From Candidatus Zhuqueibacterota bacterium (GTDB lineage: Bacteria; Zhuqueibacterota; Zhuqueibacteria; Zhuqueibacterales; Geothermadaptataceae), in contig JAUZRQ010000048.1 of NCBI GenBank assembly GCA_030950365.1, forward strand, positions 1 to 45,823: 45,823 bases of DNA, in the 5' to 3' direction. Shown here one piece after another: positions 34,496-40,186 of the stretch. The notes under the pieces are model-generated. The model made no database searches. It was not told the DNA's origin and worked only from the letters and a program-made list of their open reading frames with translations. The position numbers and the translations under genes were made by a program. The first letter of the stretch is position 1. Every line of letters begins with the position of its first letter.

Positions 34496-34918
34496 TTAAA
34501 AAATTCGCATAAACCCCATCTGATCGAAATGCCGATCCAGAGAAATCGCTTCATCAATGCCCATTTCCCGCATGATGGCAAACGAGGTGCAATCGGTAAA
34601 CGAGAATTGTTTATCGCGGTATTGCTTGAAAATTCCCCAGGCCAGGTTCCATAGTTCGCGGTCAACTTCGACAAAATTGCAGTAGCTTGACCTTGCCAGA
34701 TTTTCAACAAATTTGATCAAGGTATCCAATGGGATGCGCTTTCGAAGCATGGTAATGGTTTCGTCGAGAATAAAATTGCTGGTCACTAGAACATGCTCGC
34801 TGCGAATATAGGCTTCGATGACCGCTTTCACTTCCCGGTGCCACAAATCCTTTTTATGCAAGAAAGCCACCCATCCGCTGGTATCAACAAAAGCAGCTTT
34901 TTTATTTTTCATCGCCAT
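34496..34918 (-). CDS. PIN-domain ribonuclease toxin (VapC-like)
   Basis: 140 residues. The PIN acidic residues are in place: D12 (A-F-V-D-T-S-G-W), E53 (I-L-D-E-T), D109 (F-T-D-C-T-S) and D128 (S-L-D-R-H-F). They bind Mg/Mn for RNA cleavage. Length and order match VapC toxins. It overlaps the end of the antitoxin gene by 17 nt (11 nt if the second Met is used), so the pair is translationally coupled. The target RNA is unknown. Confidence 0.9.
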   Translation of the reverse strand: MAMKNKKAAFVDTSGWVAFLHKKDLWHREVKAVIEAYIRSEHVLVTSNFILDETITMLRKRIPLDTLIKFVENLARSSYCNFVEVDRELWNLAWGIFKQYRDKQFSFTDCTSFAIMREMGIDEAISLDRHFDQMGFMRIF

Positions 34919-35156
34919 AGATATATTTATCTACAAGCTCAGAAAAATTCCGGGGGACACCCTCAATATCTACTGGTTTGAAATTGAGAAGCGGATCTTT
35001 TTCCACGCTGGAAATGGTGAAACTAACCAATTGCAATTTGATATAAAATTTGGCCAGCTCTTCCGGTGTCGTATTCTTTTTTCTGGCCATTTCTTCAAGC
35101 CGTTCCATCCATTTCGGCTCAAGCTCAATCTTTAAAATATTTTTTTTCTTAGCCAT
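34902..35156 (-). CDS. Antitoxin partner of the PIN toxin
   Basis: 84 residues with GGGAGG before the start. A basic N-terminus (M-A-K-K-K-N-I-L-K-I-E-L) resembles a ribbon-helix-helix strand, followed by helices (W-M-E-R-L-E-E-M-A-R-K-K-N-T-T-P-E-E-L-A). The C-terminal half is acidic or amphipathic and could wrap the toxin. RHH assignment is from pattern only. Such antitoxins usually repress their own promoter, which would lie at 35157-35230. Confidence 0.75.
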   Translation of the reverse strand: MAKKKNILKIELEPKWMERLEEMARKKNTTPEELAKFYIKLQLVSFTISSVEKDPLLNFKPVDIEGVPRNFSELVDKYIYGDEK

Positions 35157-35612
35157 GACAACCTCCCGAGCGGATTATGTTTCGATGCAAGTTACATCGT
35201 GGCGACGCAAAATGCAATAAAATTTCATGGCCCCGTTGCTGTCCCGACAGGCCTATTGCTACTGTTTTTTCGCCGTGGATGAATGCGGATGTAGGGCTGA
35301 AGATAAAGCTGAATTGTTTTTTGAAACCGCCGAGTGCGCAAAGGAAGCAGGATGCTTACCTCTCTGCCCTCAATACACTCCTATGTTATACTCTGCGACT
35401 TCCCCTCCAATTCGCCAATGAGTAAACTACATCGTGGTCCAAAACGCGAGGAGAATCACCTCTCCGCTATCAGCGTATCGACGGTTGAAAACCCGCAAAG
35501 GCCTCCTAATTAGTGGAGATACATGCGACGCCTACGGCGTTAATCCATTTAAAGGCCATCTTGGATCTACTACCGTCCCTGACGGTGTTTGCAAGGCAAG
35601 AGTTCAGGTTAA

Positions 35613-35633
35613 TACACGGTCTCAGACCGTGTA
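35613..35633. repeat. Strongest hairpin of the array: 9-bp stem, TCA loop
   Basis: TACACGGTC (35613-35621) and GACCGTGTA (35625-35633) are exact reverse complements with a three-base loop. No T-tract follows on either strand. Confidence 0.8.
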
Positions 35634-35656
35634 GAATCGGGTGCCGCAACAAAAAA

Positions 35657-35721
35657 ACCGCGTAGCGGTGCCATGTTTGTAGCCCCCAGGCCACTCCCCA
35701 TTCACAAAACCGCGTAGCGGT
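35657..35721. repeat. Two direct copies of an ACCGCGTAGCGGT hairpin unit
   Basis: The copies at 35657-35669 and 35709-35721 are identical in the palindrome and share flanking AAA and G-N-CATGT; start-to-start distance is 52 nt. Confidence 0.8.
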
Positions 35722-36063
35722 GGCATGTATCCCCAAAAATCAGCTCCGCATGGCTGCTAAATGTATGCCAGTACAATAGCACCGCATTTATCCTACAATT
35801 CTTCCCTCTACGTCCTTTACGCACTCCGCGGTTCCCCCAAAGCCACAATTTCAGGCCAACCTCTCCGGCCCACAAAGGCCGAGGTTATAGAGATGATTAT
35901 TTTAGTAAAAGTTTGGACCAATAAACAGTCGGAGACAGTGTGTGATCTGGGACTGATATCCCAATAACCAACGAAGAAAACTTCGCGGAAGTCAAAAATG
36001 CCAAGATGAGTACTTCTGCGAGCCCGGTCTCTCTGCGAGAGTTTTTTTCCTTGCATTACCCCA

Positions 36064-39000
36064 TCACGGCAAAACGAGCAATTTGCGAATAAGGACCCGA
36101 TCCCGGGTTTGCATGCGCAGAAAATATACGCCCGGCGAAAGCACGGCGCCAACCGGGCCAGCCGCCGGCCAGCTTAAACGGTGAACGCCAGCCGGGAACG
36201 GCTGCGAGGCCAACAGCGCCACGCGCCGGCCCAGAACATCGTACACGGCCAGCTCCACCCGCGCTTCCTGTGGCAACGCGAACCGAATCACAGCGCAGTT
36301 CCGCACGGGATTGGGCGCGACCGGCCACAACTGAAAACCTTCTGGCAAAGATTCCGATTGGTCACGAATGGACGTAGTTTGTCCCGCCAGCGCGCGGATG
36401 TCGTCTTCGCTCAGCGCCCGGTTGTACAGGCGCACCTCATCCAGCACGCCCTTGAAATTGTAATGCGTATCGCCGGGCAGCATCTGCCCGAGGGTGAGCG
36501 CCAGCGGCGTGGTGAGCAAAGCGCCCTTCCAGGCGGCCTCGGCCTGAGGCTGGCCGTCGAGAAACAACCGCAGCCGCTGGCCGTCGTACGTGGCGGCCAC
36601 ATGGTAGAACCGACTGGCCTGCAAGGGCGCTGGCGAATCCAGATCGGCGATCCCCTGATCGGTTTTCACCGTCCAGCGCAGCTTTTTCTCCGGAGTGATG
36701 GAAATTTTCCAGCGGTTTTGCCAGCTTCCATGCGAAATGGGAAAGCTCTCACGCGCAAAAAAACCATCGATGCGCATCCAGAACGACACGGTTATGGCAT
36801 CCTGCACATTAAGCACCGGCGTGGACGGAACCTGCACGGCATCGTCCACGCCATCGAATGCGAGCGCAGCCCCCGGGCGTCCGTTTCGATCCGGCGTGGG
36901 CACCGCTTCCACCACTGCACCATAATGCCCAAAACCGCTGACATCCCGCGCATCGCCGTCCAGCGGCCAATGCGCGATGAGATGGCCGACGGTGATCGCC
37001 AGGCTATCTTCCGATGTGGCGTCGGCATCATCGCTCACGCGGACTCGAATGCCATAATAGCCCACCTGTTGCGGCGCATGCCACACGGCCACGGAATCGC
37101 TCGTCTGGAGTTCGCCGGCTTCGGCATACCACTGAAAAACCAGCGCTTCACCATCCGGATCGGTGGCCCGGCACACAAGGCGCGTTTGCTCTCCCGGCGC
37201 GAGAATCTCCTTTTCAGCCACAAGACTCACGATGCGTGGCGGCTGGTTGGCCAGCACGCGAAGGGGCACCGAAGCGCTGTCGCTTGCGCCCTTCGCATCC
37301 CGAACGATGCACTGTACAACCCGAATGCCTGCCTGTGCCGGCGCGATCCAGACCACCTGCGGTCCGTCGCCCATGATTTGGCCCGTCGCCGCCTGCCACA
37401 AATACGTCAGCGCATCGCCATCCCGGTCCTCGGCCGTGCAAAAAAGTCGCACCGAATCCCCGCGCGCGATTTCATGTTTACCTGCCGCCAGGCTTTTGAT
37501 CCGCGGCGGATAATTGGCCACCGGACGCCCGGCGCGGTAATCCACCACCACGCCGTTGACCCGCATCCGGTCGAGCTCATAGGTCACCTCTCCGCCAGCG
37601 GGCACGATCACGAGCTGAACCACGTCATCGCCGGGAATGCTCAGCGCATACATCCCGGCAACCCCCTTCGCGATGAACGCATTGGCCACAGCATCATAGA
37701 GATCATGCAGGCCCTCACCGGTTTCCACCAGAACGGTTCGCGGTTGATCGTAAGGATTGAAGTAAAGATACGTCGGATAGGCCGGTCGGCGAAAGAAGTC
37801 GGTTTTCAGCACATCCAATCGCAGAATCATCGGCACGTTGGTGGTATCGACCAGGGCGCCGAGATAGCCCACATGCGACGACGCGTACAGGGCCAGATTG
37901 GTGTTGCCCCAGCCGCCGCGGACGGCATCGCCGGTGGCAAAGGGACTCCGACCGAATTGCTCCTTACGCATCGCCTCATGACCGATGACCGATTGCGGAT
38001 CGTACTGATAGGACCAGTCCTCGCTGTCCTGGTTTTCGGCCGGCAAGAATCTGGGATAAAACAACCGCGAGGCATTGGCGAGATTCAGCACCCATTTGGC
38101 AATAGTCCGCGAAAACCGGTCATCATAGCGCGTAAGCGGCACCAGGGCCGCCGCCTGCTGAAAGCCATTCATCAAAAAGGCATAGTCGTTTCCCGACACC
38201 TCGCCAATAAGTCCTGAAACATCGTATCCTCCCCAGTTGCCGATGATCGCGCCCCAGCTCCGCAGCGGCCCGACCTCGAAGCACCAATTGACCAGCTTTT
38301 CCACATTATATTGCGTGCCCAGCTCCGCGTTCATACGCGCCGCCGTGTAAGCGCCGTAGGCCAGTTGCAGCTCATAAGCCGGATTTTGCGGCCACTGATT
38401 CAGAAACTCCATGGCCCATTCCGCGCCGAGGCGGTACTGCTCCTCGCCGGTTTCGACATAAGCGTGGTACAGAATCCAGGCGATGGCGCCGGCGGCCTCG
38501 GGCTCGGGCACGCCGTCGGTGCGCGGTTGCATGGTGGCGAAGGCCCAGGCGCGGTAATTCATGTACGGCACCTGCCAGGGCGTATCGCTGCCGCCCATGG
38601 CACGAACCGCTTGCAGCCAGCGCTCCGCCACTGTATGAAATTGCCGTTTGAAATCGCCCGTGGTTGGATACAGATCATAAAGCTGATAGAAAAACACATT
38701 GGGCATGGTTTCGTACCACCAGTCCTGCCCGCTTTGCGTCGCGGCGAGGTTGAGGTAAATGTTCTCCTGCGGCCGGCGATTGAAAAACTCTTCACACATC
38801 AGCACCCAGTTCTCGCCATGCTGCTGGCTCTTATCAATGCCTATCAGAGAGGCGCCGATGACCGCCGGCAGCACAGTGATGGCCTCGGCAAGCGGCTGTC
38901 CGCGCGGCCCCACCACCGCCGGCAGGCCAAAACTTTCATGCTCGGGGTAGTTGATGGGATTGGGAATTTTCCAGATCAGCGGCAGGTATTTCCCCTCGCG

Positions 39001-39219
39001 GTTCACATCGAAGACCAGCGAATCGTATTGTACGGCCACGCGTTTCCAATCGCGCATGGCATACGGCTGCGGTTGATTGGGCATGAGCTCAACGCGCGGG
39101 ATGCGAATTTGCTGTGCCTGCGCCATCAGTAGCGGCCACAGCCCGAAAAAAAGGGCGATCCGCCCTCCGCGCCGGAGTCGCGAACCGCCCCGCCCTTGCT
39201 GTCGGTTGTCTTCTGGCAT
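36064..39219 (-). CDS. Large secreted multidomain protein: alpha-helical N-terminal domain, two PKD/Ig-like, LamG-like, T9SS-type tail
   Basis: 1051 residues. ATG at 39219 is preferred over GTG at 39228 because GGTGG precedes it properly. A long Arg-rich n-region and signal peptide end near residue 36 (MAQAQ). Residues about 80-460 are helical and rich in Trp/Tyr, suggesting an alpha/alpha toroid as in polysaccharide lyases or glycoside hydrolases; no catalytic residue can be assigned. Two PKD/Ig-like domains start at N-Y-P-P-R-I-K-S-L and N-Q-P-P-R-I-V-S-L (about 560-740). A LamG/concanavalin domain (H-W-P-L-D-G-D-A-R-D, F-D-G-V-D-D-A-V-Q-V) follows near 745-930. The tail (A-P-N-P-V-R-N, G-R-R-V-A-L-L, S-P-G-V-Y-F-L-R-M, L-I-R-K-L-L-V-L-P) is T9SS-type. 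It is the last gene of the glycan locus, starting 1 nt after GH130. Confidence 0.85.
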   Translation of the reverse strand: MPEDNRQQGRGGSRLRRGGRIALFFGLWPLLMAQAQQIRIPRVELMPNQPQPYAMRDWKRVAVQYDSLVFDVNREGKYLPLIWKIPNPINYPEHESFGLPAVVGPRGQPLAEAITVLPAVIGASLIGIDKSQQHGENWVLMCEEFFNRRPQENIYLNLAATQSGQDWWYETMPNVFFYQLYDLYPTTGDFKRQFHTVAERWLQAVRAMGGSDTPWQVPYMNYRAWAFATMQPRTDGVPEPEAAGAIAWILYHAYVETGEEQYRLGAEWAMEFLNQWPQNPAYELQLAYGAYTAARMNAELGTQYNVEKLVNWCFEVGPLRSWGAIIGNWGGYDVSGLIGEVSGNDYAFLMNGFQQAAALVPLTRYDDRFSRTIAKWVLNLANASRLFYPRFLPAENQDSEDWSYQYDPQSVIGHEAMRKEQFGRSPFATGDAVRGGWGNTNLALYASSHVGYLGALVDTTNVPMILRLDVLKTDFFRRPAYPTYLYFNPYDQPRTVLVETGEGLHDLYDAVANAFIAKGVAGMYALSIPGDDVVQLVIVPAGGEVTYELDRMRVNGVVVDYRAGRPVANYPPRIKSLAAGKHEIARGDSVRLFCTAEDRDGDALTYLWQAATGQIMGDGPQVVWIAPAQAGIRVVQCIVRDAKGASDSASVPLRVLANQPPRIVSLVAEKEILAPGEQTRLVCRATDPDGEALVFQWYAEAGELQTSDSVAVWHAPQQVGYYGIRVRVSDDADATSEDSLAITVGHLIAHWPLDGDARDVSGFGHYGAVVEAVPTPDRNGRPGAALAFDGVDDAVQVPSTPVLNVQDAITVSFWMRIDGFFARESFPISHGSWQNRWKISITPEKKLRWTVKTDQGIADLDSPAPLQASRFYHVAATYDGQRLRLFLDGQPQAEAAWKGALLTTPLALTLGQMLPGDTHYNFKGVLDEVRLYNRALSEDDIRALAGQTTSIRDQSESLPEGFQLWPVAPNPVRNCAVIRFALPQEARVELAVYDVLGRRVALLASQPFPAGVHRLSWPAAGPVGAVLSPGVYFLRMQTRDRVLIRKLLVLP

Positions 39220-39220
39220 C

Positions 39221-40186
39221 TCATCCACCGGATTTCAGGAATTCCAGCAAATCGCTCATTTTAGCGGTGGCCACCGCCATGCAGGTATCGGCGGCGCCAT
39301 AGTACAACCGCAGCCGGTCCTGATCGCGATCGTAAATGGCGCCGCATGGGAAAGTCACATCGGCCACGTCACCGGTGCGTTCGTAGGGCTCTTTCGGGCC
39401 AAACACCCACTGATGGCTCCGATAGATGACTCTGGCCGGGTTCTCGAGATCGAGCAGCGCGAGCCCGATGCGGTACAGGTTGCCGGCGGCGGTTTCCCGC
39501 ACGCCGTGATAAATAATTAGCCAGCCTTCATTGGTTTCGATGGGCTGCGCGCTCAGCCCGATCTTATGAGCATCCCACCAGCCGCCGCGCCGCGCCTTGA
39601 ACAAAATCCGGTGTTCGCCCCAGTGAATCATGTCGGGCGAATAGGAGATCCAGATGTGCGCTTTGCCGGCGCGCATGGCCGGCATCGGCCGGTGGATCAA
39701 AATCCAGCGGCCGTTGAACCGCCGCGGAAATAGCGACGCGTCTTTGTCATCCGGCGGCATGATAGGCCCTTTGCGTTCGAACACTCGAAAATCACGCGTC
39801 ATGGCCAGCGAAACCAGCGGACCGCCTTCCGAATATGAGGTGTACACCACAGCAAACTTTTCCAGCTCATCGATGTACACCACGCGCGGGTCCTCGATGC
39901 CCCACAGTTCCTCAGGGTGATTTTCCACATCCGGCAGGAGCGTGGGCTTTTCGTCGATGATCCAGTTGGTGAAGCCATCCTTACTACGCGCCAGGGTCAG
40001 GTGCGACATGCCGCGCATATCTTCAACGCGCACCAACAGGTACGTCTCGCCATTCACTTCGGCCGCGGCTGCATTGAACACGGAATTGGCCTGATACGGC
40101 CACATGTCCGCCGTTAAAATGGGATTGCCCTCGTACCGTTGAAACAGTTCCGGATAGTTTCGATCACCATAGCCACGGTACTTCAT
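39221..40186 (-). CDS. GH130 family glycoside phosphorylase/hydrolase
   Basis: 321 residues; the ATG at 40186 follows AAGGAGGAG. A five-bladed propeller with GH130 signatures: Y-E-G-N-P-I-L-T near residue 18, N-S-V-F-N-A-A, V-R-V-E-D-M-R-G-M-S-H-L, and the catalytic-acid region W-G-I-E-D99-P-R. I-I-Y-H-G-V lies in the fourth blade. Characterised members phosphorolyse beta-1,2- or beta-1,4-mannosides to mannose-1-phosphate; some hydrolyse instead. No signal peptide, so cytoplasmic, which fits action on sugars imported by the neighbouring ABC permeases. Subfamily, and therefore linkage, cannot be settled by eye. Confidence 0.9.
   Translation of the reverse strand: MKYRGYGDRNYPELFQRYEGNPILTADMWPYQANSVFNAAAAEVNGETYLLVRVEDMRGMSHLTLARSKDGFTNWIIDEKPTLLPDVENHPEELWGIEDPRVVYIDELEKFAVVYTSYSEGGPLVSLAMTRDFRVFERKGPIMPPDDKDASLFPRRFNGRWILIHRPMPAMRAGKAHIWISYSPDMIHWGEHRILFKARRGGWWDAHKIGLSAQPIETNEGWLIIYHGVRETAAGNLYRIGLALLDLENPARVIYRSHQWVFGPKEPYERTGDVADVTFPCGAIYDRDQDRLRLYYGAADTCMAVATAKMSDLLEFLKSGG

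Follow-up and report, generated by a model that had tools for sequence, protein, structure and literature searches.

What are the short hairpins crowded between positions 35465 and 35985 of the window, and do they belong together? The window is a 45,823-nt stretch of DNA from a draft bacterial genome (4.98 Mb, 136 contigs, 95% complete; hereafter the own genome, G000). The region is bounded on one side by the gene of a PIN-domain protein, preceded by a small ORF (34496-35156, minus strand), and on the other by a large Laminin_G/PKD-domain protein (36064-39228, minus strand). The PIN-domain gene and its small ORF, which adjoin the composite repeat described below, are likely a VapBC-like toxin-antitoxin pair. 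An earlier note, made from the sequence alone, had reported at least nine hairpins in gene-free DNA, and a count of perfect triloop hairpins agreed: nine with stems of at least 4 bp were found against 1.86 expected, a number reached in none of 2000 dinucleotide shuffles (P<0.0005). At stems of at least 5 bp there were five triloops against 0.46 expected (0/2000 shuffles; P<0.0005), and at 6 bp or more two against 0.11 (dinucleotide shuffles; P=0.0045). Annotation of the stretch gave the following features.

35652-35730, minus: A-B dimer, two triloop hairpins in direct orientation and the core of the finding (covariance model match E=3.9e-16, this copy being itself in the model; 16 own-genome copies aligned)
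35709-35730, minus: hairpin A, ATACATGCC-ACCGC-TAC-GCGGT
35657-35684, minus: hairpin B, GGCTACAAACATGGC-ACCGC-TAC-GCGGT, followed by T7 (35650-35656)
35515-35540, plus: solitary A-type hairpin carrying the second stem version, GGAGATACATGCG-ACGCC-TAC-GGCGT, an inverted repeat in opposite orientation to the dimer
35564-35638, minus: second family, GATTCTACACGGTC-TGA-GACCGTGTATT ... AAACACCGTC-AGG-GACGGTAGTAGATC, with triloops at 35614-35632 and 35572-35586 (27 own-genome copies of hairpin I)
35925-35947, minus: degenerate hairpin of the second family, GATCACACACTGTC-TCC-GACTGT, at the composite's opposite end (alignment with contig C21)
35555-35949, minus: composite dispersed repeat containing the dimer (73% identity over 405 alignment columns to own-genome contig C21, locus L002; partial copies at L003 and L009)
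1997-2062, plus: degenerate second-family pair, GGTCCGGCCGTC-AGG-GACGGCC ... AACACCGTT-GCC-AACGGTATTGGACC

Several details of the earlier description held: no ORF of 150 aa or more lies over the A-B dimer, the two near-identical copies 52 nt apart were recovered (35654-35676 and 35706-35728, 22/23 identical), and the design does recur at 1997-2080, where three triloops form a degraded copy of the second family. The proposal that six triloops share one design was not upheld, as the cluster comprises two separate repeat families, the ACGGTC/ACCGTC hairpins having other flanks, and likely chance hairpins. The statement that no T-tract is present was also incorrect, since seven T come directly after hairpin B on the minus strand. 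Among the nine triloops counted at 4 bp, some have probably arisen by chance. As an account of the whole, chance or base composition can be set aside almost completely, given the local P<0.0005 and the dispersed homologous copies of both the dimer and the second family throughout the genome, those of the dimer extending across phyla.

The dimer is a fixed unit of about 78 nt, in which A reads ACATGYC-stem-TAC-stem and B reads CTACAAACATGYC-stem-TAC-stem. In the own genome the consensus of A is (A)CATGYC-[5-bp stem]-TAC-[stem]-TT and that of B is GGCTACAAACATGTC-[stem]-TAC-[stem]-TTT. The order is A then B on one strand, with loops about 50-54 nt apart and a spacer of variable sequence. Two stem versions occur there, ACCGC/GCGGT and ACGCC/GGCGT, and both hairpins of a dimer are usually alike. 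A blastn search of the own genome (query 35640-35760, minus strand) returned 21 matches on many contigs, and a covariance model detected at least 18 dimers; 11 of 14 own-genome copies have no ORF of at least 150 aa across them, and the copies are mostly old and diverged. The earlier suggestion of a REP-like dispersed element was thus supported for the A-B dimer. Up to at least 58 dimers were detected in the highest-copy relatives, and copy number between relatives ranged from 0 to over 50; these covariance-model counts are lower bounds, from a model built with own-genome copies included. Across 31 aligned dimers the 5' flank was ACATGYC (A) or CTAYAAACATGYC (B), the loop was mostly TAC and also TAAC, and the length was nearly fixed, mostly 72-82 nt, with a variable middle.

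The second family has the consensus GATCCTACACGGTC-NNN-GACCGTGTATT-N~22-AACACCGTC-NNN-GACGGTGTTGGATC and holds the ACGGTC/ACCGTC triloops. It appears as a triloop pair bounded by GATC (window 35564-35638 and 1997-2062; loci L223-L242). Its hairpin I has 27 copies in the own genome at one mismatch or fewer, none in the same-genus genome G073 and four in G024, which belongs to another family; a search for a transposase of this family found none. Because 35555-35949 aligns at 73% with contig C21, it represents one copy of a composite repeat of about 395 nt, with the dimer nested inside. A degenerate repeat of the AACCGCGGAGTGCGTAAAGGACGTAGAGGG type, which is part of the composite (window 35803-35833; L002, L003 and L009), is scattered over many loci.

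The distribution of hairpin B was determined with the pattern CTACAAACATGNCNNNNCTACG, in which nothing is fixed except the B flank and the closing C-TAC-G, four stem positions being left free. At least 115 stretches matched among the matches listed, an arbitrary subset of which a few are chance, and they fell in at least seven phyla: Bacteroidota, Verrucomicrobiota, Desulfobacterota, Ignavibacteria/Chlorobi, KSB1, Acidobacteria and Cloacimonadota. What all phyla share is limited to the A and B motifs, and each genome has its own sequence around them. In 170 pattern matches, for which pairing was not required for inclusion, 609 of 680 free stem positions were Watson-Crick paired, compared with a mean of 408 and a maximum of 439 when the 3' arms were shuffled, and 13 different fully paired stems were present. 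Another alignment (A3) showed 100% pairing, which we do not count as proof because its rows were selected for pairing; the unselected set is the test of covariation. The idea of palindromic cassettes kept in shape and not in sequence thus stood for the A-B dimer, whose stems covary across phyla with fixed loops and flanks, and not for all six triloops lumped together. Carriage by phages was considered and rejected: nine pattern matches were found in 2.9 million viral contigs, a number judged close to chance on a rough reckoning of how large the collection is.

Covarying stems are also what RNA structures such as terminators, attenuators or small RNAs would display, and the T7 after B in the window copy fits a terminator. 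However, G-T pairs were nearly absent (13 of 680 stem positions), most relatives have CTTGAC, CTCTGA or similar sequence downstream in place of a T-tract, copies exist in both orientations and in tandem arrays, and no Rfam family was matched at gathering or permissive thresholds. The RNA reading, which the earlier note had offered, is therefore disfavored, and we consider it highly improbable. With loop and flank constant, the strict Watson-Crick covariation of the stems argues for a hairpin that acts as DNA and not as RNA, a DNA shape that covaries.

Clustering of all ORFs near element loci identified a Y1 transposase. In Desulfonema magnum, where tandem arrays reach up to 18 pattern matches, two Y1 genes carry A/B-type hairpins on their flanks, and one of them lies between an inverted array upstream and a direct array downstream. 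These long B-unit arrays (L031:3100-7060) have a period of about 50 nt, and remnants of the tnpA 3' end are found nearby. The protein matched Pfam Y1_Tnp (E=2e-25) and the NCBIfam IS200/IS605 transposase profile above cut-off. An AlphaFold model (pLDDT 92) had ISDra2/IS608 TnpA as best folds, followed by the REP-bound RAYT 4er8. The flanked protein is therefore an HUH/Y1 single-tyrosine transposase with an IS608-like fold and with HUH and Tyr intact. The flanked genes, of about 150 aa, carry DH[IV]H (here DHVH), WQ and Y---Q--HH (here YIxNQxxHH) and a C-terminal domain of their own, which places them in TnpA_Y1 subclass 1.2 (Quentin et al., 2018; PMC6006769); H55, H57 and Y115 are invariant in the alignment of this subclass (A4). 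A D. magnum member is encoded at L031:6519-6977. That survey gives subclass 1.2 a median of about 148 aa and the motifs DH[IV]H, WQ and YIKNQKEHH, places it mostly in Cyanobacteria and Bacteroidetes, and enters it in Table 1 as 'REP: no'. The motifs match those of the flanked genes; in contrast to the survey entry, cognate hairpins were seen here, and the subclass extends beyond the main groups that the survey names, with members in KSB1, Desulfobacterota, Verrucomicrobiota, Acidobacteria and Ignavibacteria too. As the subclass is listed without a REP and its genes are flanked by paired hairpins, the hairpins are likely the partner of an orphan enzyme.

The link between hairpin and gene was then evaluated by position. 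With this transposase as query, a Y1 match was present in 46 of 82 genomes of the window's phylum. Here B lay within 200 nt of 9/16 close subclass-1.2 genes, 0/30 class-2 RAYTs and 0/12 distant Y1 genes (Fisher P about 1e-5, close genes against class-2 RAYTs). Among 38 genomes of other phyla, which were reached through element loci and so were selected for having the element and not for its position beside tnpA, B lay within 220 nt of 14/25 close and 0/5 distant genes. Pooled, 22 of 41 close subclass-1.2 genes had a B within 220 nt; near the other 19 the strict B motif was absent, and some of these show variant hairpins on inspection. B faced outward in 36 of 45 cases (upstream 23 outward and 5 inward, downstream 13 and 4); as background, 64 kb of flank farther from the genes held 7 B. 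The usual layout is B'-A'-tnpA-A-B, facing outward with A proximal and B distal (L148, L153). Dimer copies had a median of 14 in genomes with a close tnpA and 1 in those without (lower-bound counts; P=1e-4).

The earlier note had also seen no transposase. None is encoded within the window, so this part was correct; related transposase genes elsewhere are nevertheless flanked by such hairpins. Subclass-1.2 tnpA had no match at E <=10 in the own genome, a 95%-complete draft in 136 contigs. We infer that it has been lost or lies unassembled, two cases that are not separable because of this incompleteness and because the repeats lie near contig ends. The same-genus genome G073 has dimers and only a distant Y1, whose flanking hairpins are different. 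Genomes rich in dimers with no close tnpA detected include G002 (at least 49 copies, 97% complete), G038, G051 and G055.

Such genomes are what would be expected if the dimers were stationary host sites, serving for instance a protein of the nucleoid, of replication or of supercoiling, or else a domesticated TnpA_Y1 in the role of maintenance nuclease, with the A-B spacing of about five helical turns as the working feature and slow spread by duplication. The constancy of this spacing among dimers whose spacers differ in sequence, and the mostly old and diverged state of the copies in G000, are compatible with such sites. They do not readily explain the tight linkage and outward orientation around one transposase subclass, the patchy occurrence across phyla with 0 to over 50 copies between relatives, or the tandem arrays in D. 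magnum, and we regard this explanation as unlikely.

In G038 and G002, dimers that are the same or nearly so were seen at separate sites, but the shared sequence there reaches beyond the dimer. In G038 this shared sequence runs to terminal inverted repeats of another type, ACTACCGGACAC.../...GTGTCCGGTAGT, and a target duplication is not clear. Since these dimers lie inside a larger inverted-repeat unit, another transposase may have spread those copies. In the same genome (L291-L297), a repeat with the ends ACTACCGGACACTTT / AAAGTGTCCGGTAGT and two inverted A-B dimers inside was found at several AT-rich sites and looks like a MITE of a transposon. Taken further, all dimers would be passive cargo of inverted-repeat transposons (DDE-type MITEs) and larger composites, and the HUH link would be incidental; insertion of the G038 unit at different places, the conservation in G002 well past the dimer and the nesting of the G000 dimer in its composite all agree with this. 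It is hard to reconcile with the fact that nothing beyond the A and B motifs is shared by all phyla, the surroundings being genome-specific, or with the presence of B at 22/41 tnpA genes, and we judge it quite improbable. Around the G000 dimers no terminal inverted repeats or target duplication were found. No clean empty site was obtained, and the one orthologous intergenic region compared (G075/G074) was wholly different.

The dimer is therefore probably a dispersed, non-autonomous REP-like DNA element cognate to TnpA_Y1 subclass 1.2, whose transposase is lost or unassembled here. As in REPtrons, cognate hairpins flank the subclass-1.2 genes and also occur dispersed elsewhere. As described in the REP/REPIN and RAYT literature (PMC6006769; PMC8266576; PMC3733652), REPtrons likewise comprise hairpins that are short, dispersed and for the most part intergenic, that vary in their stems and that form paired units, with inverted copies bracketing a TnpA_Y1 gene. 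Like GTAG REPs, the dimers are high-copy dispersed extragenic palindromes; unlike them, they lack GTAG (or GTRG) at the 5' foot, where the flank is CTAC/CTAT-AAACATGYC, so that a GTAG would be read from the opposite strand and on the 3' side of the hairpin. The dimers differ from REPINs in being direct and not inverted, with A and B unlike in flank, and from RAYT systems in having a transposase of subclass 1.2 instead of class 2, with stems of about 5 bp and a TAC or TAAC loop. IS200/IS605 elements (IS608, ISDra2) have in common with the dimers a pair of subterminal hairpins that point the same way on one strand, as well as the transposase fold and catalytic residues, and each hairpin here has a short 5' sequence at the guide position of IS608. 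In contrast to IS200/IS605, the genes here are bracketed by inverted dimers and not by a single hairpin at each of the left and right ends, YxxxQxxHH and the extra C-terminal helix region of subclass 1.2 are present in the protein, and the stems are not fixed. Copies within a genome are mostly diverged. CGTC-tagged REPs, according to PMC3733652, are also small hairpin repeats reported from Chlorobi and Bacteroidetes, but with an unpaired CGTC end tag, 8-9-bp stems and loops of 4-5 nt, which is not the case here. In the openly licensed literature, the flank sequence returned only unrelated papers, and the accessible portions of the REP/RAYT papers do not mention the element; an earlier description under another name is possible.

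Binding, cleavage and mobilization by TnpA are inferred from the adjacency and by analogy with IS608, ISDra2 and RAYTs, whose chemistry is known. By this analogy, the hairpins would fold when their strand becomes single, for example as lagging-strand template. TnpA may then bind them by shape and use the 5' flank as a guide, its tyrosine cutting beside the flank before the ends are joined. This could excise a dimer or a REPtron carrying tnpA, copy it elsewhere or amplify it in tandem. The flanks (CATGYC; CTAYAAACATGYC) and the loop are constrained, and the stems change by compensatory mutation. A broader proposal, on which our judgment is evenly divided, is a cross-phylum single-stranded DNA system in which subclass 1.2 reads a paired hairpin through shape, loop and 5' flank instead of stem sequence. 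With stems free to drift through compensatory change, lineages of the element would become specific to each genome yet rely on one enzyme type, and the direct A-B dimer would be the minimal mobile unit. The finding provides an orphan subclass of HUH transposases with a candidate substrate across seven or more phyla in which REP biology has received little study, and a general question becomes testable, namely how a single-stranded DNA transposase keeps recognizing an element whose stem changes freely. If confirmed, the dimer would define a REP-like class with flanks and polarity unlike those of GTAG REPs, account for a common repeat at the contig ends of draft genomes, and provide a compact hairpin-recognizing enzyme for comparison with IS608.

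Other Y1-type genes were seen with repeats of their own. NF047646 gave six RAYT-like matches in the own genome, and 784 kb of sequence around element loci of other genomes contained no RAYT gene. The own-genome class-2 RAYTs were rejected as the cause of the dimers because their flanks bear other repeats; one such gene (L023:1200-2300) has GTAG-type repeats on both sides, GTAGCCGCAAGCTTCAGCTTGCGG ... CCGCAGCCTGAAGGCTGCGGCTACC. At L164, L166 and L168 lie more distant Y1 proteins (YIATQAEHH type) that have small hairpins of other kinds on their flanks, such as AACCCTGAAAGGGTT and CGCCGTTGGCG, which are perhaps further classes of cognate repeats.
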